A stretch of 64,000 nucleotides of DNA, from the NCBI GenBank assembly GCA_013215095.1, contig JABSPM010000006.1, positions 1-64,000 on the forward strand, in the 5' to 3' direction. This stretch comes from Flavobacteriaceae bacterium (lineage in GTDB: Bacteria; Bacteroidota; Bacteroidia; Flavobacteriales; Flavobacteriaceae). The first letter of the stretch is position 1. The number at the start of each line of letters is the position of its first letter. This document shows positions 24,534 to 43,291 of this stretch, one piece after another. Below the pieces are notes generated by a model. That model was given only the letters and a program-made list of their open reading frames with translations. It had not been told where the DNA came from and made no database searches. Both the position numbers and the translations under genes were made by a program.

Positions 24534-24544
24534 ATTTAAGCCCT

Positions 24545-24880
24545 ATGGAATACAAAATAAAAAGTCGTCTTTGGATTGAAACCAACAATCAAGTCTTACT
24601 TGGTGAAGGAAGAATACAGTTATTAAAGGCTATTGCTGATACTCGTTCTTTATCGAAAGCTGCAAAACGTCTTAATATGTCCTATAAGAAAGCATGGAAT
24701 TTAATCGACTCCATTAACACTAACGCTAAAACACCTGTGGTTTCAAAATCGATTGGTGGTAAAGGCGGCGGTGGCACCATCATCACAGCACACGGTAAAC
24801 ATCTTATAGAAATCTTTGACAACATCAATAAACGCTGTTGGGAATTTTTAGATAAAGAGCTAGAACAAGCAAATCTTTAA
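24545..24880 (+). CDS. ModE N-terminal-type winged-helix DNA-binding protein
   Basis: This 111-residue protein matches the DNA-binding half of ModE: LLGEGRIQLLKAIADTRSLSKAAKRLNMSYKKAWNLID is the helix-turn-helix, followed by the wing with GGKGGGGTIITAHGKHLIEIF. The C-terminal molybdate-binding MOP domains of full ModE are absent, so either it works without sensing molybdate itself or it relies on another partner. It is 11 bp after moeA. Repression or activation of this operon through the site at 23314-23337 is the simplest role. Confidence 0.92.
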   Translation: MEYKIKSRLWIETNNQVLLGEGRIQLLKAIADTRSLSKAAKRLNMSYKKAWNLIDSINTNAKTPVVSKSIGGKGGGGTIITAHGKHLIEIFDNINKRCWEFLDKELEQANL

Positions 24881-24882
24881 CT

Positions 24883-25620: not shown

Positions 25621-25621
25621 T

Positions 25622-26206: not shown

Positions 26207-26423
26207 ATATTTTGGCTTGATTGCTGAAATCACAAATTGTTCTGAAGAAACAATTCCTTTCTCGAAGCACACTGTTGCAGAGTTTTTAGATTTGATTTTC
26301 AGCAAATACCCCGCTTTAAAAAACAAAGATTTTAAAGTCGCTCAAAACATGCAATTGGTAAACATCGAAACAAAAATATCATCAGCAGAAATCGCACTAT
26401 TACCTCCTTTTTCGGGAGGATAA
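26190..26423 (+). CDS. moaD: Molybdopterin synthase small subunit MoaD
   Basis: This 77-residue ubiquitin-like sulfur carrier ends in LLPPFSGG. The C-terminal Gly-Gly is adenylated by MoeB and then carries the thiocarboxylate used by MoaE to make the dithiolene of molybdopterin. KVKYFGLIAEITNC at the start is typical. It overlaps mobA by 17 bp and is followed after 41 bp by moeB. Confidence 0.94.
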   Translation: MNLKVKYFGLIAEITNCSEETIPFSKHTVAEFLDLIFSKYPALKNKDFKVAQNMQLVNIETKISSAEIALLPPFSGG

Positions 26424-26464
26424 CACTCCCAGGAAAGCAGTCTTCCCTATTTAAAAGATACGCA

Positions 26465-27532
26465 ATGCATAGATATAACAGACATATTATATTATCAGAT
26501 GTTGGTCTAGAAGGTCAGAACCAAATTTCCAATGCCAAAGTTTTAATCGTTGGTGCTGGTGGCTTGGGGTGTCCTGTACTGCAATATCTAGCCGCTGCAG
26601 GAATTGGCACTTTAGGAATTATCGATTTTGATAGTGTAGAAATATCCAATTTACAGCGCCAAATACTCTTTGGAATTTCATCTATTGGTCAAAACAAAGC
26701 CTTAGCTGCAAAGGCCAGATTAGAAGACCTAAATCCTACAATACATATCACTGCCTATCCAGAAGCCTTAACACAAAACAATGCCTTACTCCTATTTAAA
26801 GATTATGATATTATTATTGATGGCTCTGACAATGTAGCAACCAGATATCTGATTAATGACGCAGCATTGCTAACTAAAAAACCCATAATTTATGGCGCTA
26901 TTTATAAGTTTGAAGGTCAAGTCGCTGTTTTTAACTATAAAGACTCTGCAAATTATCGGTGCCTTTTTCCCAACCCTCCCGATAACATGATTTCAAATTG
27001 CTCAGATGTTGGAGTATTAGGGGTGTTACCAGGAATAATAGGTACGTTTCAAGCTAATGAAACTTTGAAAATCATTCTAAACCTCGGAGACACTCTCAAT
27101 GGAAAATTACTCAGCTATAACGCAAAAAACAATCAAACCTATACCGTTTCAATCCCAAAATCTGATTATAGCATTACCGAAGCAGCATTTCATGCAAATA
27201 GATATTTAGTGCCAAACTGCGATAAACCAATTAAACAAATCGATTTTGAAGCAGCTGTTCAATTAAACTCTGTTCAATTCATAGATGTTAGGGAGACTCA
27301 AGAAACACCAAAATTAGATTTAGAGCATTGCATTAACATTCCACTACATCAATTATTCGAAAGCCATGATGAAATTGACAAAACTGCAAATAAAGTTTTT
27401 ATATGTCAATCTGGTAATAGAAGTCAACGCGCTATTGCATTTTTAGAAAAATTAGGGTATAAAAACTGTTACAACCTAGCAGGTGGCATGCAATCAGTCA
27501 TAAAAAACAAAACATATAATGAAAGCAGATAA
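26465..27532 (+). CDS. moeB: MoeB/ThiF-type adenylyltransferase with rhodanese domain
   Basis: This 355-residue E1-like enzyme activates the C-terminus of MoaD. The adenylation domain has the nucleotide loop VGAGGLGCPVLQYLAAAG, the NLQRQILF segment, and NCSDVGVLGVLPGIIG. A C-terminal rhodanese domain (about residues 255-355) has the active-site loop ICQSGNRSQRA with the persulfide-forming Cys. The fusion, as in eukaryotic MOCS3/Uba4, would both activate MoaD and deliver sulfur. It overlaps moaE by 14 bp. Use by ThiS as well as MoaD cannot be excluded. Confidence 0.93.
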   Translation: MHRYNRHIILSDVGLEGQNQISNAKVLIVGAGGLGCPVLQYLAAAGIGTLGIIDFDSVEISNLQRQILFGISSIGQNKALAAKARLEDLNPTIHITAYPEALTQNNALLLFKDYDIIIDGSDNVATRYLINDAALLTKKPIIYGAIYKFEGQVAVFNYKDSANYRCLFPNPPDNMISNCSDVGVLGVLPGIIGTFQANETLKIILNLGDTLNGKLLSYNAKNNQTYTVSIPKSDYSITEAAFHANRYLVPNCDKPIKQIDFEAAVQLNSVQFIDVRETQETPKLDLEHCINIPLHQLFESHDEIDKTANKVFICQSGNRSQRAIAFLEKLGYKNCYNLAGGMQSVIKNKTYNESR

Positions 27533-27965
27533 AAAAATAAAAAACGTGTTTAGACAAGGGGCAATATCTTCAGAATTTATTGCCAACTCAATCGCAAAAC
27601 ATCAAGTGAAAACCAATATTGGAGCACACAATATTTTCTTAGGTCAAGTACGTGCAGATACTATTAAAGATCAAACAGTTGCTGCTATTGAATATAGCGC
27701 TTATGAAGATATGGCCAACGCAAAATTTCATGAGATCAGAGAAGCAACTTTTGAGAAGTTCAACTTAACATGTATGCATATTTATCACAGCTTAGGAACA
27801 GTGAAATCTGGTGAAATATGCTTGTTTGTTTTTGTGTCATCAACGAGACGAAAGGAAGTATTTAAAGCCTTAGAATATGTTGTAGAAGAAATCAAAGCAC
27901 ATGTTCCTATTTTTGGGAAAGAGATTTTTGAAGACGAAACACACCAATGGAAAATCAACTCTTAA
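27519..27965 (+). CDS. moaE: Molybdopterin synthase catalytic subunit MoaE
   Basis: This 148-residue large subunit of molybdopterin synthase transfers two sulfurs from MoaD to precursor Z (cPMP). It shows the FLGQVRAD, IEYSAYEDMA, IYHSLGTVKSGEICLFVFVSSTRRKEVFKALE and VPIFGKEIFED blocks of the family. The last blocks hold the conserved arginine and lysine residues of the active site. The start overlaps moeB. Confidence 0.95.
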   Translation: MKADKKIKNVFRQGAISSEFIANSIAKHQVKTNIGAHNIFLGQVRADTIKDQTVAAIEYSAYEDMANAKFHEIREATFEKFNLTCMHIYHSLGTVKSGEICLFVFVSSTRRKEVFKALEYVVEEIKAHVPIFGKEIFEDETHQWKINS

Positions 27966-28057
27966 GATGATACATCACTTCTCTATAATATAAGCTATTA
28001 GTCAACTGCAACGCTTGCATAAATAAACGCAGCAAAACTAAAAAATTCAACAACAAA

Positions 28058-28969
28058 ATGGTCGACATCACATATAAAAACAATACACTTAGAATAGCAA
28101 CCGCTCAAGCCATCGTAAAAGTAAGCAAACCCGAGACTATTGAAGCTATTAAAAAGGATACTGTTCCCAAAGGAAATGTATTGGCTATGAGCAAAGCTGC
28201 GGGGTTATTAGGGGTCAAAAAAACACCAGAACTTTTACCAGACTGCCACCCGATACCCATTGAATACACTAGCATTGATTATAATATTACTGACCTAGAA
28301 ATCACGGTAACTTGTACTATAAAAACCATTTACAAAACTGGTGTTGAAGTAGAAGCAATGCATGGCGCAAGCATTGTAGCGCTTAATATGTATGACATGC
28401 TAAAACCGATTGATAAAGGCGTAGAAATTCATCACATCAAGCTCTCACAAAAAAAGGGTGGTAAATCTGACTTTAAACACAAGTTTAAAAACAACATAAA
28501 AGCCGCTGTGATTGTATGTTCAGATACAATTTCGGCAGGACAAAAAGAAGACAGAGCAGGAAAAGCAATCATTAAAATATTAGAAGAAAGTAATGTTGAA
28601 ATTTCTGATTATATTATTATTCCCGATGAAAAAGAGGTCATTCAGAATAAAACAAAAGACTATGTGTCTCAAGATTTAGATTTGGTAATATTTACTGGTG
28701 GTACTGGCTTATCAAAACGCGATGTTACCCCTGAAGCTCTAGAAGCTCTAATAGAACGAAAAATCCCAGGCATAGAAGAAGCTATTAGAAATTATGGTCA
28801 AAACAGGACACCTTATGCTATGTTATCGAGAAGTGTTGCTGGCACCATTGCAAAAACCTTAGTATTGGCCGTACCTGGTTCTACAAATGGCGCTAAAGAA
28901 TCCATGCAAGCAATTTTCCCCTCAGTCTTACATGTTTTTGGAATTCTAAAAGGCGCAAGACATGATTAA
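28058..28969 (+). CDS. moaCB: MoaC-MogA/MoaB bifunctional fusion
   Basis: Residues about 1-150 are MoaC, which with MoaA makes cyclic pyranopterin monophosphate: LPDCHPIPIEYTSIDY, GVEVEAMHGASIVALNMYDMLKP and the late lysine-rich KGGKS are diagnostic. Residues about 160-303 are a MogA/MoaB molybdopterin adenylyltransferase: VIVCSDTISAGQKEDRAG, FTGGTGLSKRDVTPEAL and LAVPGSTNGAKESM. The fusion joins an early and a late step of the pathway. It is 92 bp after moaE and 64 bp before moaA, all on the same strand. Confidence 0.94.
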   Translation: MVDITYKNNTLRIATAQAIVKVSKPETIEAIKKDTVPKGNVLAMSKAAGLLGVKKTPELLPDCHPIPIEYTSIDYNITDLEITVTCTIKTIYKTGVEVEAMHGASIVALNMYDMLKPIDKGVEIHHIKLSQKKGGKSDFKHKFKNNIKAAVIVCSDTISAGQKEDRAGKAIIKILEESNVEISDYIIIPDEKEVIQNKTKDYVSQDLDLVIFTGGTGLSKRDVTPEALEALIERKIPGIEEAIRNYGQNRTPYAMLSRSVAGTIAKTLVLAVPGSTNGAKESMQAIFPSVLHVFGILKGARHD

Positions 28970-29033
28970 AACGATAATTGTTTTCAATGTGTCATCCAAA
29001 AACAATCACTTCATATAGTCGCTATACCATAAA

Positions 29034-30041
29034 ATGAGCAATACAAACCACATGTTAACTGATAGTTTTGGAAGAAGCCACACCTATTTACGCATCTCTT
29101 TAACGGAGTTATGTAACTTGCGTTGTACCTATTGCATGCCAGCAGAAGGCATTCAACTATCACCCAAATCTCACATTATGAGTGCTGATGAAGTCTTTAC
29201 TATTGCTAAAACTTTTGTGGACCTTGGTGTCACAAAAATCAGATTAACTGGTGGAGAACCTTTTGTACGAAAAGATGTTGATCTCATTCTCAAAAAACTA
29301 GCCACACTCCCTGTAGAAATTGCAATAACCTCAAACGCCGTAACTATAAATCGTTTTATCGAGTTACTAAAAACATGTAAAATCAAAAACCTTAATATCA
29401 GTCTAGATTCTTTAATCGAAGAAAAATTTAAATTAATAACTAGACGTAACGATTTTAATAAAGTAATGACAAACATTCACCTTTTAATTACCGAAGGATT
29501 TAATGTTAAAATAAATGTCGTTCTTATTAAGAATTTTAACGACAACGAAATTATAGACTTTATAAATTTCACTAAAGATCTACCTATAAACATACGTTTT
29601 ATTGAATTCATGCCTTTTGATGGCAATCGCTGGAATAGGGCAAAAATGGTAGCACTTGATGACATTTTAAAACAGGCAGAAAACAACTTCGATACTTCAG
29701 AAATTATACGTTTAAAGGACACTCCAAATGACACTTCAAAGAACTACAAAATTAAAGACTACAAAGGAAGCTTTGCCATTATAAGCTCGGTGACCAATCC
29801 GTTTTGCGATTCCTGTAATCGTTTACGACTAACCGCAAATGGACGTATCAAAAACTGTTTATTTTCTGCTTCAGAATCTGACCTATTAACGGCATTACGA
29901 GTAGGTAAAGACATAACACCAATTATTAAAAAAGCTGTTCTAGCTAAATATAAAATACGTGGTGGCATGGACACTCAAGACAAGTTAGAATCTCCAGATT
30001 TACACACCAATAACAGAAGCATGATTGCCATTGGAGGCTAG
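29034..30041 (+). CDS. moaA: GTP 3',8-cyclase MoaA
   Basis: This radical SAM enzyme starts molybdenum cofactor synthesis from GTP. The 335-residue protein has the N-terminal SAM cluster motif CNLRCTYCMP, the RLTGGEPFVRKD segment, ITSNAV, NISLDSL, and the C-terminal second cluster CDSCNRLRLTANGRIKNCLF. It ends NNRSMIAIGG with the Gly-Gly tail needed in known MoaA. It is the last gene of the cluster; the following 1.4 kb contains only debris. Confidence 0.96.
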   Translation: MSNTNHMLTDSFGRSHTYLRISLTELCNLRCTYCMPAEGIQLSPKSHIMSADEVFTIAKTFVDLGVTKIRLTGGEPFVRKDVDLILKKLATLPVEIAITSNAVTINRFIELLKTCKIKNLNISLDSLIEEKFKLITRRNDFNKVMTNIHLLITEGFNVKINVVLIKNFNDNEIIDFINFTKDLPINIRFIEFMPFDGNRWNRAKMVALDDILKQAENNFDTSEIIRLKDTPNDTSKNYKIKDYKGSFAIISSVTNPFCDSCNRLRLTANGRIKNCLFSASESDLLTALRVGKDITPIIKKAVLAKYKIRGGMDTQDKLESPDLHTNNRSMIAIGG

Positions 30042-30851: not shown

Positions 30852-31127
30852 CTATTTCTCCACACAAATTTTCAAATCAACAGCAATAATGTGCCTTTGT
30901 ATTTCCAATAAAGGATTGACATCCATTTCGATAATTTCTGGAGATACTTCTACCAAAGCAGAAAACCTTTGGATAACCGCAATAAATATATCTTCATTAA
31001 CACCATCTTGTCCTCTAGTACCTTGAATTAATTGATAACCACGTATAGACGCAATCATATTTTGTACTTCTGCTTTAAACACTAGGCTCAAAGCTGCAGA
31101 CACATCTTTCAAAACTTCACTATAAAT
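30852..31127 (-). pseudogene. C-terminal remnant of an ADP-forming acyl-CoA synthetase (ATP-grasp)
   Basis: The minus-strand frame reads EVLKDVSAALSLVFKAEVQNM, then IRGYQLIQGTRGQDGVN and EIIEMDVNPLLEIQRHIIAVDLKI. These are the end of the ATP-grasp subunit of acetate/acyl-CoA ligases (ADP-forming), where EMDLNPL and a final AVD..I strand are conserved. A TGA at 31134-31136 stops the frame upstream and the rest of the roughly 700-residue enzyme is missing. A true gene from the TTG at 31112 is unlikely. It ends head to head with the receptor remnant, at the next base. Confidence 0.7.
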
Positions 31128-31418: not shown

Positions 31419-32102
31419 TTGGAAATTTTACTCTTAATATACTTAACCTCAACCTTAGTATTGAGTGCCATACATTTATCCTTACTAAAGGGAAAAAAAA
31501 TCCAATGGTTAGCCTTATGTATTCCAAGTAGTATTTGTCTCGGATTTTATAAATTTTCTTTAAGCCAAAACAATCAGACTTTAGATTGGTTAATACAACA
31601 AGAAAACCTAGTTTCTGCAATTGCCATAGTCCTCACATTTGAAGCAATTCTTATTGTGTTTCTAACGATTTTACAAATCAAAAGTTATTACAAAATGACC
31701 ACGCCCTCAATTTGGAAATGGATTTCCGTAATTCCATATTTTCAGCTTATTGTTGCCTTGGTCTTCTTTCAGACATTTGTGTTTTTAAAGATTAGTGGCT
31801 ATGCATTCCCCTTATTAAGCTTAGGATGCTTTGCAAGTAGTATTATTATTCTGAGCCTCCTAACCTTTGGTATACAGATTAGCATCAAAAAATGGAGTCA
31901 TAGGGCAGAAATGCAAGCACTTCTTGCCTTATTTCAATTGCTACTTGCCATGTTTTTGCCACTCATTGCTAGAGGACAAAAAGTTAATTTCACGCAAATA
32001 ACCGTAGACTATGCTGCCATTGCTATACTAATTTTTATAGTAGGCATTCTAGGTCTCGTTGGATATATTTTTTATAAACGTAAAAACAAACAACTCTCAT
32101 GA
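31419..32102 (+). CDS. Polytopic membrane protein, first gene of the HmuTUVS-like operon
   Basis: This 227-residue protein has about seven hydrophobic helices (for example LLLIYLTSTLVLSAIHLSLL, AIAIVLTFEAILIVFLTIL, AILIFIVGILGLVGYIFY) and no soluble domain. I take the TTG at 31419 as start because no ATG or GTG lies in frame nearby; this is uncertain. By position it corresponds to HmuT, the small membrane protein that precedes TolQ-like and DUF2149 proteins in haem-utilisation (hmu) operons of Bacteroidota, or to DUF2162-like proteins next to CobN-like chelatases elsewhere. It overlaps the next gene by 4 bp. Function is unknown. Confidence 0.7.
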   Translation: MEILLLIYLTSTLVLSAIHLSLLKGKKIQWLALCIPSSICLGFYKFSLSQNNQTLDWLIQQENLVSAIAIVLTFEAILIVFLTILQIKSYYKMTTPSIWKWISVIPYFQLIVALVFFQTFVFLKISGYAFPLLSLGCFASSIIILSLLTFGIQISIKKWSHRAEMQALLALFQLLLAMFLPLIARGQKVNFTQITVDYAAIAILIFIVGILGLVGYIFYKRKNKQLS

Positions 32103-32686
32103 ATAGTGTTACCAACATTCTATATTGGATTTCAACTGGTCTATTAATTCCTGTTATAGCCATTTTACTCTTTGGTTTCGTTAGGGCATTGACGCTTTTA
32201 GGAAGCTTTTTTGGCATGTACATTAGCCGTATAAAGCACGAGAAAAAGCAACAAAACTTAATTGAAAACATTGCAAATGAAAATGTAGAGAACTACATCG
32301 TTAAAGGCAACAAGACATTCAATACACATTTACAGCGCATTGTCAATGCAAAAGGCAACGACCTGTTTATTGAAAAAGTTCTGGCTGATTTTGAAATTGC
32401 CTCAGAAAAAGAACTTGGAAGCTCAAAATCCTTAACTAAACTTGGCCCTATGATTGGACTTATGGGAACCTTAATCCCAATGGGACCGGCTCTGGTAGGT
32501 TTGGCTCAAGGTGACATTTCATCCATGGCGCAAAATATGCAAGTTGCATTTTCAACTACAGTTGTTGGATTATTCATTGGAGCTATTGGCTATGTTACAC
32601 AGCTAGTAAAACAACGCTGGTTTGTTGCTGATATTAACAATTTAGAACATATCGCAAACCTCTTAAAACAAAAAACAAATGCGTAG
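32099..32686 (+). CDS. MotA/TolQ/ExbB proton channel family protein (HmuU-like)
   Basis: This 195-residue protein has the three-helix TolQ/ExbB plan: helix 1 near residues 5-33, a cytoplasmic stretch, then the paired helices LGPMIGLMGTLIPMGPALVGL (about 120-140) and VVGLFIGAIGYVTQLV (about 155-172) that line the proton path in the family. It overlaps the upstream gene by 4 bp and the DUF2149 gene by 8 bp. With that partner it probably forms a proton-driven complex, here serving the chelatase-like protein rather than an ordinary TonB. Confidence 0.88.
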   Translation: MNSVTNILYWISTGLLIPVIAILLFGFVRALTLLGSFFGMYISRIKHEKKQQNLIENIANENVENYIVKGNKTFNTHLQRIVNAKGNDLFIEKVLADFEIASEKELGSSKSLTKLGPMIGLMGTLIPMGPALVGLAQGDISSMAQNMQVAFSTTVVGLFIGAIGYVTQLVKQRWFVADINNLEHIANLLKQKTNA

Positions 32687-33005
32687 AGGTCGATTTTTAA
32701 AACAAGATGAAGATACAGACCCGATGTCTGGAATGGCAAATTTATTTGACCTTGCTATGGTCTTTGCTGTAGCACTCATGGTAGCTCTTGTTACACGGTT
32801 TAACGTTACCGAAATGATTTCTGACGAAGATTTTACCATGGTAAAAAACCCTGGAAAAGCGAATATGGAAATTATTAAAAAGAAAGGAAAAACTATAGAA
32901 AAATACAAAGGCACTTCTGGAAAATCATCCAAAGGAAAAGGAAAAAAAGTAGGAACCGCTTACCAACTTGAAAATGGAGAAATCATATACATCCCAGAAG
33001 ATTAA
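32679..33005 (+). CDS. DUF2149 protein, ExbD-like single-helix partner (HmuV-like)
   Basis: This 108-residue protein has a short cytoplasmic N-terminus (RGRFLKQDEDTDPMSGMANL), one transmembrane helix (about 22-41) and a basic, Lys/Gly-rich exterior part ending YQLENGEIIYIPED. The DPMSGMANLFDLAMVF block is the DUF2149 signature, and the topology mirrors ExbD/TolR. It lies between the TolQ-like gene (8-bp overlap) and the chelatase gene (12-bp gap). Confidence 0.88.
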   Translation: MRRGRFLKQDEDTDPMSGMANLFDLAMVFAVALMVALVTRFNVTEMISDEDFTMVKNPGKANMEIIKKKGKTIEKYKGTSGKSSKGKGKKVGTAYQLENGEIIYIPED

Positions 33006-33017
33006 CAACACCAACTT

Positions 33018-36000
33018 ATGAAAAACAAACTTATAAAATTCGGTATTTTAGGTGCAATTATTGTGAGTCTAATTTTCACCTATAAGATGCAATTTACAAC
33101 CATTGGGTTAGTAAATTTTAGTGATTCTCAAATGGCAGAAATTGTAAAAGCCAATGACAATCACTTTATTGAAACCATTCAAATTAATCCAAAAACTGAT
33201 AATTTCTCTGAATTGGTAGATTACCCTGTAATTTACTTATCACACATAAGTATACTTAGTGCAACACAAAAAGAGAATATCAAAAAAGCCATGGACAACG
33301 GAAGCAAAGTACACGTGCTTATGGCTACAAGTAAAGAAAATGATTTTAGTAATATTACTGGAGATGATTTAAAATATATCAAAGATTGTTTTGATAATGA
33401 TGGTGTAGAAAACACCAAACGTTGGCTCAACTATTCACGCAAAATACTTGATAAGAAGAGCTTATTTAGCACTGCGATTACAACACCTAAAATATTTCCT
33501 AAGGATGTATTTTATAGAATAGGAACAGATGATTATTTTGAAGATGTAAATGCGTACTGGTCCTATTATAAGGCAAAAGGACTGTATAAAGATGGACAGC
33601 CAAAAATTGTAATAATGAGTGCCAACAATGGTCCACAATCGCAGTTTCGTGCCTACATGGATAACATGATACTAGAGTTTGAAAAGCGTAATTTTAATGT
33701 TGTTTGCTTAGCAGGATTCAAGAAAAAACTTCAGAACTTAAAAGCATTACAACCACAAATGGTCATCAGTTTTCCTCATGGGAGACTTGCTGGAGGAAAT
33801 GCTTCTGTAGAATGGTTAAAAGCGCAAAACATTTTATATCTTACCCCTCAATTGGTCTATCAAACCGAAGCAGAATGGCTAAATGACCCACAAGGTATTT
33901 CAGGAGGTATTATGGGACAAAATATTGTAGTTCCTGAACTCGATGGTGCAATTCACCCTTATGCTGTTGCCGCAGAACATATTAACGAAAATGGCTATCA
34001 TACCTTTAAACCAATACCTGGACGAATTGAACGTTTTTGTGAAAATGCAGAACGTTGGTTGTCATTAAAAGAAAAACCCAACAGCGAAAAGAAGCTTGCC
34101 ATCTATTATTACAAAGGTGCAGGAAAAAACGCTTTAGTTGCAGGTGGATTAGAAGTTGGACAATCTATTTATAGTCTAATGCAAGACTTAAAGAAAGAAG
34201 GCTATAATGTAGGTGATCTTAAGGATTTTGAAACGTTCATGAAACGCATTCATATCGAAGGACCAATTTTGGGAGACTATGCCCTAGGAACTTTTGAAAA
34301 ATTCCTTGAAGAAGGCCAACCAGAACTCATATCAACTCAAGAGTATGAGACTTGGTGTAAAAGTGAACTCGACCCTGATAGCTACAAAAATGTCCAAAAA
34401 CTTTATGGCAATGCCCCAGGAACCTATTTATCTACAAAAAAGAACGACACCTCTTATTTGGCTATTCCTAGAGTATTATTTGGAAATATAGCTCTCGTTC
34501 CAGTACTGCCCTCGGCACTTGGTGAAAATGAATTCAAATTATCACATGGTGTTAAAAAAGCACCAACCCACGCCTATATTGCCTCATACTTATGGGCAAG
34601 AAAAGGATTTAACGCCGATGTTGTTGCGCATTTTGGAGCGCATGGTTCTGTAGAATTTACACCATGGAAGCAACTTGTATTATCTCTTAAAGATTGGCCA
34701 GAAGCTTTGATTGCTCCAATACCACATTTATACCTTTATTCTATTGATAACATAGGAGAAGCCATGATGGCGAAGCGTAGGTCTTATGCTACCATGATTT
34801 CTCACTTAACACCACCGTATTCTGACTCCGAGCTTTATGGAGAACTTAAAGACATTTCTGAAGTCTTACATAAGTATAACGAACTGCAAGAAGGTGAGTT
34901 AAAAAACACCTATAAAAAAAGAATCCTGAAAATTATAGACTCCTTAAGTCTTGATAAGGACCTTGAACTAAGCAAAGCAGAAATTTCTAATTTAGACAAG
35001 GAAACTATTGACTATATTCACCACTATTTGCATGAAGTAGAAGGCGAAAAAATCACCATGGGACTACACACCTTAGGTGTGAATCAAACCGAAGAAGAAC
35101 AAAAAGAAACGGTTAGAATGATGGCTATTGACCCTATAGAATCAAGCTTAGAACAATTAGCAAAATACCGCAAAACAAAGCATAAACACCATCACCATCA
35201 CCATGGAGAAGCACACAGTTTAGAGGATATTGATCCAAAAGACTATAGAGCACAAGCTAACTTTATGATAACCAAGATTATCAATGGTAAAGCAACACCA
35301 TCCGAAATGTTCGGACACGATAACGAACATGCATTAGATAATCTATATGCTACCTATGGCGACCCTGAAAAAACGGCTATTTCTGAATATTATGGCGGCA
35401 GTTACGCACGAAAGAAAAACGGCGAAAAAAAACAGAAAAAACAGGAAATGGTCTATGACATGAAAACACATAAAATGGTGCCGAAGTCTAGCTTAAAAAC
35501 TGAAGCCCATAATACAGATGGTCACCACCATAATAACGACAAAAATCACCATTCTAAAGACCATAAAAAAAATGATGCAGAAAAAGAAGAAATGGTCTAT
35601 GATATGAAAACACATAAAATGGTGCCGAAATCTAGCCTTCAACCTGAAAAAGCAATTTCCTTAGAAACAGCAAAACAACTACTCATCCATTTGTCTGCTG
35701 TAAGGCAAACATCAAAATCAATAGATTATCTTCAAACTAAAGAGGGGTATAAAGAACTTTCAGGACTGCTAGATCAAAAAAGTTTTATGCAATTCAAAAC
35801 CGCTGCAAAATTTAACTCGGATGTGCTCTGGAAAGTTGAAACAATTGAAAATAAAACTTTTGTAAAATTCTTAAAATTCGTTCAAGATTCAACACAAAAA
35901 CAAACTGTTTTTGCAACTTTAAAAGACCAAGGTATCCAAGATAAAATTACGTCCTATAGAGCAAAACTTGATGCAATTACTATTGCGAAAGCCTCAGAAA

Positions 36001-37955
36001 AAGAGAAACTAAACAAAGCTTTATCTGTTTACAAGCAATCGCGTAGAACCTTTAATAAGTACTATGAAACTACAAGTAAATTAGAGCTAGACGACCTTAA
36101 AACTGCTTTAGATTTCTACGCAGATAATAAAGATGCTATTCTAGAAGCAACTGGGCTCAAAGGAGATATTGCTATAATGCGTAATATTTTAGAAAGCACT
36201 ACTGGCTTTGAAAGTCTAAAAGAAAAGCAAGCTATGCTGCATACTTTGATTCAAAATAAAATTCGAAAAGAAAAAAGTATTTTAGCCGCGTTATTGCAAC
36301 TCAAAAATAGCTTAAGCGACATTGAAAATTACCAAGAAGGTATAACGCTATCACCGCGCTTAGAACTCGACGCTTTCACTAATGGTATGAATGGCGGATT
36401 TGTAGCGCCATCCTCTGGTGGGGATCCTGTGTCTAATCCACTCGCAGTACCAACAGGTAAAAATCTATACTCCATAAATGAACAGGTGACACCTACCAAA
36501 GAAGCCTTTGAAACTGGACAAATTTTAGCGGAGCAGATTCTTCAAAAACATATTGCTAGACACGGTGAATATCCTAAAAAAATTGCATACTCGCTTTGGG
36601 GAGGAGAATTCATAAGAAACCAAGGAATGAATATCGGACAAATATTCTACATGCTAGGTGTTGAGCCAGTGAGGAATAGTTATGGTCGTGTTCATGATGT
36701 AAAATTGATTCCTATTGAAGACTTAAAGCGCCCAAGAATTGATGTTTTAGTCCAAACATCTGGACAGTTTAGAGATTTAGCAGCTTCTAGAATTGACCTT
36801 ATCAATAAAGCAGTTCAACTTGCTGCCGAAGCTGATGATGATGACAAGTATAAAAACTACGTCAAAGCAGGTACTATTAAAGCTGAAAGTGCTTTGAAAG
36901 AAAAAGGATTCTCTCCAGAAGACGCACAACGTTTTGCCACGGCCCGTGTATTTGGAGGACTTAACGGAAATTACGGCACTTCTATTATGGACTTAGTAGA
37001 GCAAGGTGATCTCTGGGAAACTGAAAAAGAAATTGCAGATACATACATCAATAATATGGGCGCAATTTATGGAAAGGACAATTGGGCTTACTTCAAAAAA
37101 GGCATGTTTGAAACTATGATGAGTGACACAGAAATTGTGATTCATCCACGTTCTTCAAATGACACAGGTCCTATATCATTAGACCATGTTTATGAATTTA
37201 TGGGAGGCTTAACCGCTAGTATTCGTGTGACTACAGGAACAGATCCAGACGGTTATTTTAACGACTTTAGAAACCGTTATAACCCTAATGTACAAACGCT
37301 TAAAGAAGCTATTTGGACTGAAACAAGAACCAATCTCTTTAATCCAAAATTTATTAAAGCGCAAATGGCAGAAGGTGAATCTGCCGCTGAAGGTTTTGCA
37401 GAAAATTTCAGAGACACCTATGGCTGGAATGTAATGAAGCCAGCTGCCATAGACAAAGAAATATGGGAAGGTTACTATGACATCTATATTAAAGACAAGC
37501 AGAATTTGGGTACACTTAAGTTCTTCAAAGAGACCAATCCTTATGCTTTACAAGAAATGACGGCTGTCATGCTAGAAACCGTGAGAAAAGGGTATTGGCA
37601 ACCTAGCGAAACTGTAAAAAAAGACATTGCTAAATTGCATGCCGAATTAATCAAAGATTACAAAGCTGGCTGTAGTGGTTTTGTTTGTGACAATGCAAAA
37701 CTTAATGAAATGATTGCTTCATTATTAGATGACACACTCAACCAAACGTATCAAAATGCCATTGACGAGGTGCGCACAGGTAGTGCTACTGAAGCTGATA
37801 GTGAAGAAGGAATGGTGTTAGAAAAAGAAGTACTCCAAAAGGATAAAATTGTGTCTATGATTAAAGAAAATATCACCGCAATTTTACTTCTAATACTACT
37901 TATTGGAGGAGCTATAACTTGGGGTGTTATCAAAAGAAGAAGAGAGAATGAATAA
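33018..37955 (+). CDS. CobN/HmuS-like membrane-anchored tetrapyrrole chelatase or dechelatase
   Basis: This 1645-residue protein belongs to the CobN/ChlH superfamily of large chelatase subunits. Diagnostic blocks include LSHGVKKAPTHAYIASYLWARK, GAHGSVEFTPWKQL, IAYSLWGGEFIRNQGMNIGQ, and DVLVQTSGQFRDL. It has an N-terminal helix (about 7-25) and a C-terminal helix followed by KRRREN, so it is probably held in the membrane with the catalytic part outside. HmuS of anaerobic Bacteroidota, also a CobN relative with TolQ-like and DUF2149 partners, has been connected to metal release from haem. An aerobic cobaltochelatase role is less likely, since cobS/cobT and other cobalamin genes are absent. A His-rich, internally duplicated insert spans about residues 722-880. 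Confidence 0.88.
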   Translation: MKNKLIKFGILGAIIVSLIFTYKMQFTTIGLVNFSDSQMAEIVKANDNHFIETIQINPKTDNFSELVDYPVIYLSHISILSATQKENIKKAMDNGSKVHVLMATSKENDFSNITGDDLKYIKDCFDNDGVENTKRWLNYSRKILDKKSLFSTAITTPKIFPKDVFYRIGTDDYFEDVNAYWSYYKAKGLYKDGQPKIVIMSANNGPQSQFRAYMDNMILEFEKRNFNVVCLAGFKKKLQNLKALQPQMVISFPHGRLAGGNASVEWLKAQNILYLTPQLVYQTEAEWLNDPQGISGGIMGQNIVVPELDGAIHPYAVAAEHINENGYHTFKPIPGRIERFCENAERWLSLKEKPNSEKKLAIYYYKGAGKNALVAGGLEVGQSIYSLMQDLKKEGYNVGDLKDFETFMKRIHIEGPILGDYALGTFEKFLEEGQPELISTQEYETWCKSELDPDSYKNVQKLYGNAPGTYLSTKKNDTSYLAIPRVLFGNIALVPVLPSALGENEFKLSHGVKKAPTHAYIASYLWARKGFNADVVAHFGAHGSVEFTPWKQLVLSLKDWPEALIAPIPHLYLYSIDNIGEAMMAKRRSYATMISHLTPPYSDSELYGELKDISEVLHKYNELQEGELKNTYKKRILKIIDSLSLDKDLELSKAEISNLDKETIDYIHHYLHEVEGEKITMGLHTLGVNQTEEEQKETVRMMAIDPIESSLEQLAKYRKTKHKHHHHHHGEAHSLEDIDPKDYRAQANFMITKIINGKATPSEMFGHDNEHALDNLYATYGDPEKTAISEYYGGSYARKKNGEKKQKKQEMVYDMKTHKMVPKSSLKTEAHNTDGHHHNNDKNHHSKDHKKNDAEKEEMVYDMKTHKMVPKSSLQPEKAISLETAKQLLIHLSAVRQTSKSIDYLQTKEGYKELSGLLDQKSFMQFKTAAKFNSDVLWKVETIENKTFVKFLKFVQDSTQKQTVFATLKDQGIQDKITSYRAKLDAITIAKASEKEKLNKALSVYKQSRRTFNKYYETTSKLELDDLKTALDFYADNKDAILEATGLKGDIAIMRNILESTTGFESLKEKQAMLHTLIQNKIRKEKSILAALLQLKNSLSDIENYQEGITLSPRLELDAFTNGMNGGFVAPSSGGDPVSNPLAVPTGKNLYSINEQVTPTKEAFETGQILAEQILQKHIARHGEYPKKIAYSLWGGEFIRNQGMNIGQIFYMLGVEPVRNSYGRVHDVKLIPIEDLKRPRIDVLVQTSGQFRDLAASRIDLINKAVQLAAEADDDDKYKNYVKAGTIKAESALKEKGFSPEDAQRFATARVFGGLNGNYGTSIMDLVEQGDLWETEKEIADTYINNMGAIYGKDNWAYFKKGMFETMMSDTEIVIHPRSSNDTGPISLDHVYEFMGGLTASIRVTTGTDPDGYFNDFRNRYNPNVQTLKEAIWTETRTNLFNPKFIKAQMAEGESAAEGFAENFRDTYGWNVMKPAAIDKEIWEGYYDIYIKDKQNLGTLKFFKETNPYALQEMTAVMLETVRKGYWQPSETVKKDIAKLHAELIKDYKAGCSGFVCDNAKLNEMIASLLDDTLNQTYQNAIDEVRTGSATEADSEEGMVLEKEVLQKDKIVSMIKENITAILLLILLIGGAITWGVIKRRRENE
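35181..35639 (+). repeat. His-rich segment with a 50-bp tandem duplication inside the chelatase gene
   Basis: Six consecutive His (residues 724-729) are followed by a charged linker. A 51-bp unit at 35445-35495 recurs at 35589-35639 with only a few changes and encodes EMVYDMKTHKMVPKSSL twice (about residues 810 and 858). Between the copies lies a second His/Lys/Asp-rich stretch (DGHHHNNDKNHHSKDHKK). The segment interrupts the chelatase fold and looks like a metal- or haem-holding loop. Confidence 0.85.
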
Positions 37956-37976
37956 GCAATAAAACGCAACTATTAC

Positions 37977-38354
37977 ATGCCAGAAATTGTAAAATTTGCA
38001 ATTATCTATTTTAGCCTTGCGCTTCTCTTTTATAGTATTGGTGTATGGGCAGAGCGTCTTAAGAAAACACTTAGACCATGGCATTTGATATGCTTTTGGT
38101 TGGGTTTAAGTGCTGATAGTGCAGGCACGTATTATGTCAGCACACAAGTTGGTGGTCTATGGCTTTTTAACTTCCATACGGTTACTGGAATCTTGGGATT
38201 AACACTCATGAGCATTCATACCGTTTGGGCAAGCGTTATCATATTTAAAAAGGACGCTAAATTATTGACCTCATTTCATAGATTCAGTGTAATCGTTTGG
38301 CTCATTTGGCTCATACCGTATTTCACAGGATTCTTTTCTGGTCTTGCGAAATAA
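37977..38354 (+). CDS. HsmA family membrane protein (TIGR03987 type)
   Basis: This 125-residue protein has four helices and the family pattern HLICFWLGLSADSAGTYY, NFHTVTGILGLTLMSIHTVWAS and SFHRFSVIVWLIWLIPYFTG. Proteins of this family include HsmA of Clostridioides difficile, a membrane protein that binds haem and protects against haem and oxidative stress. Conserved histidines in the helices are candidate ligands. It follows the chelatase gene by 21 bp and is followed by a terminator, so it belongs to this operon. This supports haem as the substrate of the system. Confidence 0.8.
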   Translation: MPEIVKFAIIYFSLALLFYSIGVWAERLKKTLRPWHLICFWLGLSADSAGTYYVSTQVGGLWLFNFHTVTGILGLTLMSIHTVWASVIIFKKDAKLLTSFHRFSVIVWLIWLIPYFTGFFSGLAK

Positions 38355-38375: not shown

Positions 38376-38410
38376 AAAAAAAGCCTTGTTAAAACAAGGC
38401 TTTTTTTTTA
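38376..38410. terminator. Bidirectional terminator between HsmA-like and FdhF-like genes
   Basis: AAGCCTTGTT / AACAAGGCTT forms a hairpin with an A tract before and a T tract after, so it can end transcripts from both converging genes. Confidence 0.9.
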
Positions 38411-38422: not shown

Positions 38423-40711
38423 TTATTGTTTTTCCATAGTAATCACAACACCCTTAGATGCAGGGGTGTTGCTTGTATGTGCAACATTTTTAATTGGAAC
38501 CAAAACATTAGCTTCTGGGAAGTATGTTGCCGTAGATTGTCTAGGAATATCATACGGTATAATTAAGAACTTTTCAGCAATTCGTGTTTCTCCCTCATAA
38601 TGACCTATAAGGTTTACAACATCCATCTTTTGCAAACCCTCTTGTATCATATCTTCAGGATTCATAAAAAGCACGCGTCTCTCATTAAGCACACCACGAT
38701 AACGATCATCCAATCCATAGATTGTTGTATTATACTGATCATGAGTTCTTATGGTCATCAACAGATATTGATTATCTTCTAATACAATATCCGAGCATTG
38801 ATTTATTGTGAAATTTGCTTTACCTGTAGTGGTTGGCGCAAAATCTCCATCTCGCGCATTATTTGGCAAATAGAATCCCCCTTTAACACGCACGCGTTGG
38901 TTATAATCATCAAAACCTGCAATGGTTGCTTCAATTTTATTTCGAATTCTATCGTAATTCTCAATCAATGTATCCCAAGGAACCTTAGTCGATTTTAAAG
39001 TAGCTATCGCCATGCCAGCTACAATAGCAGGCTCACTTAAAAGATGTTCAGACACGGGCTCCAAATGACCTTTAGATTGATGTACAACTCCCATAGAATT
39101 TTCTACAGTTACAAACTGCTCTCCAGTAGCTTGTTTGTCCTTTTCTGATCGTCCCAAACATGGCAAAATAAGCGCAGTTTTCCCATGAATCAAATGACTG
39201 CGATTCAATTTTGTTGATATATGAACCGTTAAATCGCAATTTCTTAAAGCTTCAGCAGTAAATTCGGTATCAGGAGTTGCCGACACAAAATTTCCACCCA
39301 TTCCAATAAACACTTTAGCCTTATGTTTATGCATGGCTTCGATAGCTTCGACCACATCATAACCATGGTGCCTCGGTGCAGAAAATTCAAATTCTTGCTC
39401 AAGTGCGTCTAAAAATACATCTTTTGGCTTTTCCCAAATGCCCATGGTACGATCGCCCTGAACATTAGAGTGTCCTCTTACTGGGCATGTTCCTGCTCCT
39501 TGTTTTCCTATACTGCCTTTAAGAAGCAATAAATTGACCACTTCTCTAATATTGTCCACGCCATTTTTATGCTGTGTTAAGCCCATAGCCCAACAGACAA
39601 TAATTTTTTTACTATCGGCAACCATCTTTGCTGTTTCCACAACCTTTTCTTTAGCTACACCACTATCTTTTATTAGCGCATCTATATCATAACGTTTTAA
39701 ATCTGCTAAAAAGGCCTCATAATTATGTGTTTTTGACTTAATAAAATCTAAATCAATTACATCAGGTTGTGTTTCTGCCATTTCTAAAAGCAACAACATA
39801 ATAGCCTTTAATAATGCGACATCCTGATTAATTTTAACTTGAAGAAAAACATCTGTCAACTTATCTCCTGAAAACCATTTGACTGGATTTTGAGGATCTT
39901 TAAATGCCATCAGACCTACTTCTGGCAGCGGGTTTACGGTTATAATTTTTCCGCCATGCTTTTTAGTATCCTTTAAAGCAGAAAGCATACGCGGATGATT
40001 AGTCCCTGGATTTTGGCCAATAACCATGACCAAGTCTGCATGATTAAAATCATCCAACGTAACCGAACCTTTTCCTATGCCCAGAGTTTGCGATAAGGCA
40101 GCCCCACTAGATTCATGGCACATATTGGAGCAATCTGGTAAATTATTGGTTCCGAATTGTCTAACAAATAATTGATACAAATAAGCGGCCTCATTACTGG
40201 TTCTTCCAGAGGTATAAAAAATTGCCTGATCTGGTGAATTCAATTGATCTAATGCTTCCCCTATAAGCTCAAAAGCAGCATCCCAAGAAATAGGTTCATA
40301 ATAATCACTACCCGGTTTTAAAACAACAGGTTCAGTAACACGCCCTTTTTTACCAACTTCATAATCTGAAAGTTTAGCTAGTTCAGAAACCTTATGTGTA
40401 GCAAAAAACAGTGGAGATACGCGATGCTTAGTGGCTTCTTCAGCAATAGCCTTAGCGCCATTCTCGCAATACTCGGCTAAAAACGCGCGTTTCTCATCTG
40501 GATCTGGCCATGCACATCCCGGACAATCAAACCCATGCTTTTGATTCAGTTTTGATAACAAACTGACCCCTTTAACAATTCCTACCTCTGAGTTCACATG
40601 CTTTAAGGCGTTGACGATTCCTTTAAAACCAGCTGCTGATTTTGGAACCTCATGTGTTTTTATACCTGTAAATGTTTCAGGCGGTTGCGCTGTTGTTTTT
40701 TTTCTACTCAT
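38423..40711 (-). CDS. FdhF/YdeP family molybdopterin oxidoreductase
   Basis: This 762-residue enzyme of the DMSO-reductase superfamily is related to the formate dehydrogenase-like YdeP group. It has an N-terminal FDCPGCAWPD motif (Cys63/Cys66), the FYTSGRTSNEAAYLYQ block, and NMCHESSG, where Cys198-His199 corresponds to the Mo-ligand Sec/Cys-His of formate dehydrogenase H. Later come GQNPGTNHPRML, GMGGNFVSATPD and the C-terminal cofactor-binding domain (TIRTHDQYNTTIYG). The usual four-Cys cluster motif is reduced, as in YdeP. It is 1 bp downstream of fdhD and likely uses the cofactor from the Moco cluster. Whether it oxidises formate is not proven. Confidence 0.9.
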   Translation of the reverse strand: MSRKKTTAQPPETFTGIKTHEVPKSAAGFKGIVNALKHVNSEVGIVKGVSLLSKLNQKHGFDCPGCAWPDPDEKRAFLAEYCENGAKAIAEEATKHRVSPLFFATHKVSELAKLSDYEVGKKGRVTEPVVLKPGSDYYEPISWDAAFELIGEALDQLNSPDQAIFYTSGRTSNEAAYLYQLFVRQFGTNNLPDCSNMCHESSGAALSQTLGIGKGSVTLDDFNHADLVMVIGQNPGTNHPRMLSALKDTKKHGGKIITVNPLPEVGLMAFKDPQNPVKWFSGDKLTDVFLQVKINQDVALLKAIMLLLLEMAETQPDVIDLDFIKSKTHNYEAFLADLKRYDIDALIKDSGVAKEKVVETAKMVADSKKIIVCWAMGLTQHKNGVDNIREVVNLLLLKGSIGKQGAGTCPVRGHSNVQGDRTMGIWEKPKDVFLDALEQEFEFSAPRHHGYDVVEAIEAMHKHKAKVFIGMGGNFVSATPDTEFTAEALRNCDLTVHISTKLNRSHLIHGKTALILPCLGRSEKDKQATGEQFVTVENSMGVVHQSKGHLEPVSEHLLSEPAIVAGMAIATLKSTKVPWDTLIENYDRIRNKIEATIAGFDDYNQRVRVKGGFYLPNNARDGDFAPTTTGKANFTINQCSDIVLEDNQYLLMTIRTHDQYNTTIYGLDDRYRGVLNERRVLFMNPEDMIQEGLQKMDVVNLIGHYEGETRIAEKFLIIPYDIPRQSTATYFPEANVLVPIKNVAHTSNTPASKGVVITMEKQ

Positions 40712-40712
40712 T

Positions 40713-41510
40713 TCAAATTAAATGTTGTGCATTAGCATAGCATGTGGCTCTATTATCCCTACAAAATGCCAATAAGGTTACTCCAAATTCTTTAGCATAA
40801 TCAACGGCTAAAGATGAGGGTGCAGAAACTGCTGCCAAATATGGGATTTGGGCTTTAAAACATTTGATGACAATCTCATATGAAATACGTCCACTAACTG
40901 TAAGTACTTTTGCCGAACTTAGTTTCTTGTCTAACAAAAGCTGTCCAACGACTTTATCTACGGCATTATGACGCCCAATATCTTCTTTAGCAACTAGCAA
41001 ATTCCCATCCAAATCAAATGCTGCGGCAGCATGTGTACCACCAGTTCTTTTAAAACTATCTTGTAATGTATGCATTTTTTTAAACAAATTTGGAATTAAA
41101 TTTATTGCTAACTTTTTGCGTTGGCTAAACACCTTATCTTCAATGCAATGCTTTTCTAATTCTGTTTTACCGCAAATACCACAAGATGAGACCGACAAGA
41201 GGCTTCTACTGGTCTGATATCCATCTCCTAATTTTTCAGGCAAAATATCCAAATGCGCTATAGCTATAATACTATTATCTTCTTTCTCAAAGCGTATTAT
41301 TGGACTATAACTCGCATCATCAATAACATCTTCTGCATGCAGCAATCCTCTTACTAAAGCCTCTTTATCTCCAGGCGTGCACATGGCTATAGTAAATGGT
41401 TTTTGATTTATGATAATTTGAATCGCCTCTTCAATTGGCAAGGCATCCTCCTCCAATACTACGCTTAAAGCACCATCTATCTTTATTGCTTCATAGTTTC
41501 GATTTACCAT
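40713..41510 (-). CDS. fdhD: Formate dehydrogenase accessory sulfurtransferase FdhD
   Basis: FdhD transfers sulfur to the molybdenum cofactor to activate formate dehydrogenases. The 265-residue protein has the reactive CGIC motif (Cys110 and Cys113) in SVSSCGICGKTELE, the TGGTHAAAAFD and KEDIGRHNAVDKVVGQ blocks and the late SGRISYEIVIKC. It is directly upstream of the FdhF/YdeP gene, with a 1-bp gap, which supports that enzyme as its client. Confidence 0.94.
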   Translation of the reverse strand: MVNRNYEAIKIDGALSVVLEEDALPIEEAIQIIINQKPFTIAMCTPGDKEALVRGLLHAEDVIDDASYSPIIRFEKEDNSIIAIAHLDILPEKLGDGYQTSRSLLSVSSCGICGKTELEKHCIEDKVFSQRKKLAINLIPNLFKKMHTLQDSFKRTGGTHAAAAFDLDGNLLVAKEDIGRHNAVDKVVGQLLLDKKLSSAKVLTVSGRISYEIVIKCFKAQIPYLAAVSAPSSLAVDYAKEFGVTLLAFCRDNRATCYANAQHLI

Positions 41511-41576
41511 AAAAAATATCTTTATATAATACGTTTTTAAGCAAATTTAATAGAAAAAAGTAAATTCCAAACCACA

Positions 41577-41606
41577 AAAAAGCCCTATCAAATGATAAGG
41601 CTTTAA
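41577..41606 (-). terminator. Terminator after fhs
   Basis: On the minus strand AAAGCC-TTATCA pairs with TGATA-GGGCTTT, followed by TTTT. Confidence 0.75.
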
Positions 41607-41623
41607 AGTAACCAAAGTTTATT

Positions 41624-43291
41624 TTAGAATAATCCTGTGATATTACCATCATTATCAATGGTTATTTTTTCAGAAGCTGGATGTGCTGGCAAACCAGGCA
41701 TTCTCATAATATTTCCTGAAATTGGAACTAAAAATCCTGCACCTGCAGCAATTTCAATCTCTCTAATTGTAATTGTAAACCCTGTAGGCCTTCCTAGAAG
41801 TTTATCATTATCTGATAATGATTTTTGCGTTTTAGCAATACAAACTGGAAGTTTTTCCAAACCTAGATTTGCGATTGTTCTCAAGTTACGTTTTGCTAAT
41901 GCCGAAAATTCTACATCATCCGCACCATAAATTTTAGTCGCGATTGCTTTTACTTTGTCCTCTACAGACATATTCCAATCGTACATTGGTGTAAAGTTGG
42001 CATTGTCAGATTCCACTACTGCTACAACCTGTTTTGCAAGTTCGATAGTACCTTCACCTCCTTTTGCCCATCCTTCAGCTAAAGCATAACGGACGTTTTT
42101 CTCTTTGGCAAATGCTTTAATTATTTCAATTTCTGCATCAGAATCCGAAACAAATCTATTAACAGCAATTATTGGTTCTATTCCAAATTGTTGAACATTC
42201 TCTAAATGTTTTTCTAAATTTGGCAAACCGTTTTTAAGCGCCTCAACATTTTCTTCTGTTAGTTGCTTTAAATCTGCTCCACCATGATATTTAAGTGCTC
42301 TAATTGTAGTAGTAATAACGACTGCTTTTGGGGCTATACCTGCACTTTGGCATTTGATGTCTAAGAATTTTTCTGCACCAAGATCTGCACCAAAACCAGC
42401 TTCGGTTACCGTATAGTCACTGAGACTCATACCCATACGTGTTGCAATTACTGTATTTGTTCCTTGAGCTATATTTGCAAATGGTCCGCCATGAATAATA
42501 GCTGGATTACCTTCCATAGTTTGCACAAGGTTTGGCTTAATGGCATCCTTAAGTAATGCTGCCATTGCACCTTCTACTTTTAAATCTCTACAATAAATTG
42601 GTTCTTTTTTAAAGGTATATCCTATAAAAATATTCCCAAGACGTTTTTTGAGATCTACCATATCATCTGAGAGGCATAGAATGGCCATAATCTCTGAAGC
42701 AGCGGTAATATCAAACCCTGTTTGCCTTGGTACTCCAGAGGTTGTTCCTCCGAGTCCAACGATGACATTTCGTAAAGCCCTATCGTTCATATCTATGACA
42801 CGTTTCCAAACTACAGTACGTGCATCAATGCCTAAACTATTGGTTTTACTTTGTATATTATTATCTATCACAGCAGATAATAAATTGTGTGCTTTTTCTA
42901 TTGCCGAAAAATCACCTGTAAAATGCAGGTTAATATCTTCCATAGGGAGCACTTGAGAATATCCACCACCAGTAGCACCTCCTTTGATTCCGAATACAGG
43001 CCCTAAAGAAGGTTCCCTAAGAACAACTGTGGTTTTTTTACCAATTCTATTTAAGCCCTCGGATAGACCTATAGACATCGTAGTTTTTCCTTCACCTGCA
43101 GGTGTTGGCGAAATTGCTGTAACCAAAATAAGGTTATTTTCCTTTACTTTATCTAAATTAATTTTTGCTAGTGGAAGTTTTGCTTTGTACTTACCATACA
43201 TTTCTATATCGTCTGCATGCAATCCGATTTTTTCTGCAATAGCGGTGATGTGTTTTAATTCAACCTCTTTTGCAATTTCTTGATCTGTCAT
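41624..43291 (-). CDS. fhs: Formate-tetrahydrofolate ligase
   Basis: This enzyme joins formate to tetrahydrofolate with ATP to give 10-formyl-THF. The 555-residue protein has the full family length, the ATP-binding PTPAGEGKTTMSIGLSEGL, EPSLGPVFGIKGGATGGGYSQV, the NRFVSDSDAEIE block and the C-terminal LPAHPASEKI. It is upstream of, and on the same strand as, fdhD and the FdhF-like gene but separated by a terminator, so it is a neighbour in function rather than a certain operon member. Together they suggest active formate metabolism. Confidence 0.96.
   Translation of the reverse strand: MTDQEIAKEVELKHITAIAEKIGLHADDIEMYGKYKAKLPLAKINLDKVKENNLILVTAISPTPAGEGKTTMSIGLSEGLNRIGKKTTVVLREPSLGPVFGIKGGATGGGYSQVLPMEDINLHFTGDFSAIEKAHNLLSAVIDNNIQSKTNSLGIDARTVVWKRVIDMNDRALRNVIVGLGGTTSGVPRQTGFDITAASEIMAILCLSDDMVDLKKRLGNIFIGYTFKKEPIYCRDLKVEGAMAALLKDAIKPNLVQTMEGNPAIIHGGPFANIAQGTNTVIATRMGMSLSDYTVTEAGFGADLGAEKFLDIKCQSAGIAPKAVVITTTIRALKYHGGADLKQLTEENVEALKNGLPNLEKHLENVQQFGIEPIIAVNRFVSDSDAEIEIIKAFAKEKNVRYALAEGWAKGGEGTIELAKQVVAVVESDNANFTPMYDWNMSVEDKVKAIATKIYGADDVEFSALAKRNLRTIANLGLEKLPVCIAKTQKSLSDNDKLLGRPTGFTITIREIEIAAGAGFLVPISGNIMRMPGLPAHPASEKITIDNDGNITGLF

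Follow-up and report, generated by a model that had tools for sequence, protein, structure and literature searches.

A five-gene operon in the window, the whole stretch of 64,000 nucleotides analysed here (Flavobacteriaceae bacterium, assembly GCA_013215095.1, contig JABSPM010000006.1, positions 1 to 64,000), probably represents the Hmu haem de-chelatase module in a flavobacterial version, extended by a gene of the HsmA family. This assessment is based on sequence comparison and applies to the module as a haem de-chelatase; neither of the two roles considered below for HsmA is included in it. The de-chelatase operon itself is an already known kind of system, and what appears to be new here is the addition of hsmA to the hmuS operon.

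Organization of the operon and its relatives

The operon consists of five open reading frames (ORFs), all on the plus strand between positions 31419 and 38354, each of which overlaps the next or lies at most 21 bases away from it; the start of hmuU overlaps the end of hmuT by 4 bases. Its features are the following.

31419 to 32102, plus strand: hmuT, encoding an HmuT-like membrane protein of 227 amino acids with an uncertain TTG start, recognized by the gene at the same position in relatives
32099 to 32686, plus strand: hmuU, encoding a MotA/TolQ/ExbB-like proton channel subunit of 195 amino acids (PF01618, 42 bits, 9.4e-11)
32679 to 33005, plus strand: hmuV, encoding a DUF2149 protein of 108 amino acids (PF09919, 117 bits, 4.1e-34)
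33018 to 37955, plus strand: hmuS, encoding a class I chelatase relative of the haem de-chelatase type, 1645 amino acids (CobN-Mg_chel PF02514, 965 bits; solved relative 9d26)
37977 to 38354, plus strand: hsmA, encoding an HsmA family protein of 125 amino acids with four predicted helices (TIGR03987, 130.1 bits against a curated cut-off of 78.2)
38376 to 38409, plus strand: intrinsic terminator, an A-T rich stem of 14 pairs followed by a T run (-16.2 kcal/mol, z -5.6)

ORF spacing, family matches and the hairpin at the operon's end confirm what the initial annotation, made from the sequence alone, had described as a tightly packed operon with its own terminator, and the TIGR03987 score establishes the last gene as a genuine member of the HsmA family.

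Ten relatives (L004 to L013) were found by short exact peptide patterns of the window HmuS; together with the window they make up a sample of 11 genomes, which is no census. Their records include Tenacibaculum, Maribacter and Aureivirga, and the flavobacterial form of the Hmu module is thereby documented; the word 'Flavobacter' was not found in the main text of the HmuS literature that was searched for it. The order hmuT-hmuU-hmuV-hmuS (T-U-V-S) is present in the window and in all nine relatives whose records reach far enough (L004 to L012), the record of L013 beginning inside hmuS. The corresponding order is hmuY-R-S-T-U-V in Bacteroides finegoldii and R-Y-S-T-U-V in Aureibacter. No Pfam family matched the product of hmuT; in nine relatives, however, the equivalent position holds a matching gene, which lies upstream of hmuU and reaches 54–58% identity in L004, L005, L006 and L009 but only 25% in L011.

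HmuS is related to the haem de-chelatase and distinct from cobaltochelatase

The best solved relative of the large protein is the HmuS haem dechelatase of Bacteroides thetaiotaomicron (9d26) with 1108 bits, compared with 382 bits for ChlH and 335 for CobN. A separate CobN of 1248 residues is encoded on contig C79 of the same genome, where its gene adjoins genes that by eye resemble cobalamin genes. The two proteins share 32% identity across 431 residues, and in a tree of 13 rows, whose branches are long, the C79 CobN falls far outside the HmuS rows. The protein of the relatives is labelled CobN in public annotation, which would favour an operon for an aerobic cobaltochelatase of the B12 pathway. 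We rejected that interpretation on account of the threefold higher score for HmuS, the separate CobN and the tree distance, and with TolQ-like and DUF2149 partners encoded in the same operon it appears extremely improbable. The identification of an HmuTUVS-like chelatase operon is thus borne out, and the clustering with cobaltochelatases that had been set beforehand as evidence to the contrary did not occur, the tree placing HmuS apart from CobN.

According to the available text of a 2025 paper, HmuS removes iron from haem without oxygen in an NADH-dependent reaction that leaves protoporphyrin (PMC12583661). By alignment, its catalytic residues are retained in the window protein (published His538, His1209 and Glu1212 correspond to His542, His1390 and Glu1393 in window numbering), as are Asp1208, Glu577, His254 and Ser1067 of the published enzyme, and His254 is kept in all 13 HmuS rows aligned. 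The motif HFG(T/A)HG occurs as HFGAHG, and LSLDHxxEFMGG as ISLDHVYEFMGG with the first L replaced by I. Hydrophobic stretches were seen by eye at both ends of the protein. The hmuS gene of L009, a metagenome record, is split into two frames (10001–14945).

Three features of the window protein weigh against a simple equation with the published enzyme. Met79, which together with His254 ligates the head-neck haem, is absent. Ser1014, Gln1198 and Trp1202, all on the published list of conserved residues, are replaced by Gly, Ser and Thr, respectively. Finally, the insertion in domain IV is rich in histidine, with His counts reaching 15 and Met counts not exceeding 8 in 120 residues, and carries two VYDxKTHxMVPxS repeats. 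At the Met79 position the four canonical-order rows are themselves divided, the residue being present in L057 and B. finegoldii (L091) and absent in L058 and Aureibacter (L092); in all nine aligned rows of the T-U-V-S type, the preceding column holds an invariant histidine (His76). Likewise, richness in methionine is a weak criterion because it varies among canonical rows (20 Met per 120 residues in L057, 10 in L091). Since Met79 and the Met-rich insertion have both been named as defining the HmuS haem de-chelatase family (Nath et al. 2025) and are both lacking here, we refer to the large protein as HmuS-type and as a distinct clade that, judging from its sequence, probably works like HmuS.

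Receptor and HmuY genes are separated from the operon

The initial annotation had pointed to the lack of hmuY and hmuR and had proposed a self-contained module. Beside the operon the former observation holds: inspection of the window ORF table by eye revealed neither gene adjoining it, and matches to PF14064 in the genome occur only on contig C5. On that contig, the gene for a TonB-dependent receptor precedes one for a protein of 470 residues bearing HmuY domains (PF14064, 89.9 bits), and a receptor-less system is thus rejected at the level of the genome. The notion of a self-contained module was not borne out either, HmuY and receptor being encoded elsewhere in the genome. The C5 receptor is 29% identical over 700 residues (2.5e-60) to the receptor of L007, which together with its HmuY stands directly before hmuT. 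Its kinship with the receptors of L004, L005, L009 and L012 is remote; a profile built from these four gave a partial match on C5 of 96 bits, compared with 594–700 bits for the four receptors themselves. An HmuY profile derived from three relatives found nothing in the window's own genome, an empty answer that reflects a weak profile because the curated PF14064 model did find HmuY there.

HmuY was found in 10 of the 11 hmuS genomes, the exception being that of L013. The base rate in the order is 128/296 (Fisher p 0.003, with the window genome in both counts). The HmuY gene adjoins the operon in six genomes (L004, L005, L007, L009, L011 and L012) and lies on another contig, each time with a neighbouring receptor, in four (the window, L006, L008 and L010 genomes), so that the split arrangement of the window is shared by three of the ten related genomes. 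Because of this distribution and the receptor–HmuY pair on C5, we consider it probable that a receptor does belong to the system and is encoded apart from the operon.

It is conceivable that the operon acts on a tetrapyrrole other than haem b, such as a corrinoid of cobalt or nickel or a damaged haem. The three pocket changes and the different insertion in HmuS would fit such a substrate, as would a receptor and HmuY that do not adjoin the operon here. Both catalytic histidines and His254 are retained, however, and the occurrence of HmuY in nearly all hmuS genomes, in 6/11 of them beside the operon, argues for haem. We consider a different substrate quite unlikely and retain haem de-chelation as the preferred function.

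Near the receptor–HmuY pair, C5 (L043) also encodes a PepSY_TM + flavodoxin + NAD-binding reductase (8390–10630). This reductase might likewise supply electrons to haem or iron in the periplasm; a PepSY-type reductase as a general donor was discarded, since inspection by eye of the hmuRY surroundings in three other genomes showed none. A further protein of L043 (1316–2563) has a type IX secretion tail, is weakly similar to the adjoining HmuY protein and is perhaps a secreted haem carrier.

HmuU and HmuV resemble a proton-driven pair

The hydrophobic helix of HmuV begins with an aspartate (Asp24) that all 11 aligned DUF2149 proteins, a subset of the DUF2149 loci, have in common. This residue resembles the aspartate of ExbD. 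With HmuU judged by its family and HmuV by the invariant Asp and a published comparison, the two proteins look like a proton-driven pair of the ExbB/ExbD type. In the available text of the paper that drew this comparison, the pair is thought to drive the receptor (PMC10100974). Because T-U-V stays with S where R-Y are located elsewhere, HmuU/HmuV may act on HmuS/HmuT and not only on an outer-membrane receptor. The cohesion of the four genes in genomes whose receptor and HmuY are encoded at other sites thus bears on the question of what the pair is for.

The occurrence of such genes without hmuS speaks against a dedicated link to HmuS. TolQ and DUF2149 genes are found in L037 (8596–9533) and L038 (8418–9361), where nothing in the surrounding 19 kb matches HmuS, and a short DUF2149 match stands alone in L039 (9336–9545) and L040 (8912–9121), again with no HmuS match. 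A survey (PMC10100974), as far as its accessible text goes, counts hundreds of species that possess T, U and V while lacking S. Altogether, DUF2149 was found in 6/393 genomes of the order, 4/392 of the phylum and 5/99 of the nearest relatives, the window being part of each count; the counts overlap, as the five among the nearest relatives include the L005, L006 and L010 genomes and one of the phylum matches is the L011 genome.

Further loci from these searches deserve mention in their own right. By eye, the DUF2149 matches of L039 and L040 adjoin what resembles a molybdate ABC transporter, and L041 (9175–13840) encodes a shorter, distant CobN-like protein, possibly a different type of chelatase, with TolQ and DUF2149 neighbours.

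HsmA is linked to the operon in a subset of genomes

HsmA scored above the cut-off in the genomes of three of the ten relatives (L006, L009 and L013), hence in 4/11 with the window, and in each of these four genomes a copy is found no more than 1.8 kb from hmuS. In L006, hsmA follows hmuS directly. In L009 the two genes are separated by a gene for a long-chain flavodoxin (FldA, 221 bits). In L013, hsmA is in two pieces about 1.2–1.7 kb downstream of hmuS, and the interval contains a methyltransferase-like ORF and a run of N; a second copy is present elsewhere in that genome (L071). The linkage between HsmA and the operon, to which the initial annotation had drawn attention, is thus real in 3/10 relatives and optional: hsmA is linked to the operon in a subset of genomes and is not obligatory.

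HsmA was not found in 7 of the 11 hmuS genomes, and its absence is unsure in the case of L004 because the contig ends 397 bases after hmuS and the genome amounts to only 1.6 Mb. HmuS must therefore work without HsmA in these organisms or use another partner, which counts against HsmA as an integral part of the module. In the order, the window's own genome is the only one of 393 with HsmA above the cut-off, next to one further weak match, and in the phylum the number is 7/392 with the window included. The six other hsmA loci of the phylum have no hmu genes in the surrounding 9–19 kb, one of them lying at a contig end. The earlier proposal that the product of the chelatase is handed to HsmA is accordingly unsupported, given this distribution.

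The second hsmA copy of the L013 genome (L071, 25–9663) lies near genes for a Crp/FNR-type regulator, a TonB receptor, an NMT1-like binding protein and ABC-importer-like proteins. The same locus encodes a protein without a Pfam match that shares 33% identity with the HmuY of L004 across 159 residues.

We found no description of hsmA joined to hmuS in a literature search that left most subscription journals outside, and no published work tying HsmA to flavobacteria and haem. The HmuS named in one HsmA paper is, in the text available, an unrelated Yersinia protein.

Possible roles of HsmA

Four histidines of HsmA stand out in an alignment of 14 proteins: His36 and His81 are present in 14/14, His67 in 13/14 and His101 in 12/14. 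The alignment comprises four proteins from hmuS genomes (the window, L006, L009 and the second copy of the L013 genome), six from other Bacteroidota and four that are plasmid-borne (Parabacteroides, Paraclostridium, Bacillus and Rhodococcus); left out were an Enterococcus match, a second Paraclostridium match, the L013 pieces and the four weak homologues of L050–L053. Positively charged loops after helices 1 and 3 place His36, His81 and His101 in the cytoplasmic half of the membrane. Family membership and these histidines make it most likely that HsmA binds haem in the membrane beside HmuS.

A role as a buffer for haem or protoporphyrin, in which HsmA would hold haem in the inner membrane before HmuS acts on it or would protect against free haem, falls a little short of an even chance. 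As described in the portions of two reviews that were available, HsmA of Clostridioides difficile is a membrane protein for haem sequestration or storage, which binds haem without exporting it and defends against redox stress (PMC11442138, PMC12670364). The conserved histidines are in line with this function, and both the occurrence of hsmA without hmu genes in the six other Bacteroidota and the MarR-hsmA pair in Paraclostridium fit detoxification. Buffering leaves unexplained, however, why in L009 a flavodoxin gene separates hmuS from hsmA.

The position of that gene hints that HsmA passes electrons to HmuS. As a b-type haem protein, HsmA might convey electrons from the cytoplasmic side, supplied by flavodoxin or a similar donor, to the haem held by HmuS. 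The electron donor of HmuS is left open in the accessible text of two papers, which name flavodoxin as a candidate (one of them PMC12583661), and hmu and fld loci were shown, in the text at hand, to be up-regulated under iron depletion (PMC10434189). The location of three of the four conserved histidines in the cytoplasmic half is compatible with electron transfer from that side. On the other hand, only one conserved histidine is on the periplasmic side, the flavodoxin link is confined to one of the four hsmA-bearing operons, and the majority of the hmuS genomes gave no HsmA at all. The structural model of HsmA (four helices, mean pLDDT 74.9, built from 3 sequences) retrieved generic helix bundles only and thus provided no match to a membrane cytochrome. 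Together with the storage function described in C. difficile, these points go against electron supply, and we offer it as a tentative possibility. Overall, haem buffering appears as likely as electron supply or slightly likelier. Cytochrome oxidase subunit III, which was among the top Foldseek rows for HsmA at an E value of 0.15 or worse, was not read as kinship.

Genomic setting

The 1.4 kb upstream of the operon look like gene debris and contain one recognizable remnant:

30852 to 31112, minus strand: remnant of an ATP-grasp_5 gene (PF13549, 61.3 bits, profile positions 138–221 of 221 only)

A derivation of this debris from hmuR or hmuY was considered and dismissed, as there was no convincing match and three peptide pieces belonged to no Pfam family. 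The operon is flanked on one side by genes that by eye resemble molybdenum cofactor genes (23346–30041) and on the other by genes for an FdhF/YdeP-type oxidoreductase and FdhD (38423–43291). The molybdenum and formate setting noted initially as unusual is real in the window. Next to the related hmu loci, most of which were inspected by eye from about base 3,500 onward and with 110 residues per ORF, no such genes were seen, and the setting looks incidental.

The terminator at 38376–38409 was not listed by the consensus scanner; its hairpin could also serve the facing gene of the FdhF/YdeP type. A search of Rfam at gathering thresholds returned nothing at the operon, and a promoter scan was uninformative with 42 sites versus 32 expected. 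Elsewhere in the window a flavobacterial ribosomal leader is present.

Proposed mechanism

We propose that haem is brought in by the TonB receptor and HmuY whose genes lie on contig C5. Homology and the retained active-site residues make it most likely that HmuS, an inner-membrane-anchored protein on the periplasmic side, takes the iron from reduced haem and leaves the protoporphyrin intact. The HmuU/HmuV pair may use the proton gradient to work on HmuS/HmuT, with the reservation that such pairs also occur without hmuS. HsmA would bind haem in the membrane beside HmuS and either hold haem or porphyrin or pass on electrons from a cytoplasmic donor.

It is tempting to combine these elements into an energized and wired periplasmic de-chelation, in which HmuU/HmuV act on HmuS, taking over the part that ATP-driven partners play for CobN and ChlH, and HsmA serves as a transmembrane b-haem wire from cytoplasmic flavodoxin to a bis-histidine (His76/His254) haem of HmuS. 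With the U-V pairs lacking hmuS taken into account, we consider this combination unlikely. Since the source of electrons for HmuS in the periplasm is stated to be unresolved in two papers, the present analysis is of interest in naming hsmA, and in one relative a flavodoxin gene, as candidate partners.

Comparison with known systems

HmuS of the window belongs to the same superfamily as the class I chelatases CobN and ChlH/BchH. These enzymes insert metal with the help of ATP-dependent partners, according to the available text (PMC12583661); by contrast, the partners encoded in the present operon are TolQ-like and DUF2149 proteins. With the ExbB/ExbD, TolQ/TolR and MotA/MotB pairs, HmuU shares the PF01618 family, and HmuV resembles them in the invariant aspartate that heads its hydrophobic helix; as differences, the operon contains no TonB gene and the neighbouring gene encodes a chelatase.

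The hsmRA pair of C. difficile represents the same TIGR03987 family, for which the HsmA of Paraclostridium was the clostridial protein aligned here. In contrast to that pair, the hsmA of the window has no MarR-type regulator gene beside it and ends an hmuS operon.

The closest known counterpart is the hmuYRSTUV operon of Bacteroides, Porphyromonas and Prevotella. The window operon differs from this six-gene arrangement in consisting of T, U, V, S and hsmA, in that order and not S-T-U-V, with HmuY and the receptor encoded on contig C5; moreover, its HmuS has a histidine-rich insertion and has not kept Met79. Common to both are the T, U, V and S proteins themselves, the active-site histidines and both motifs of HmuS, and the hydrophobic ends of that protein.

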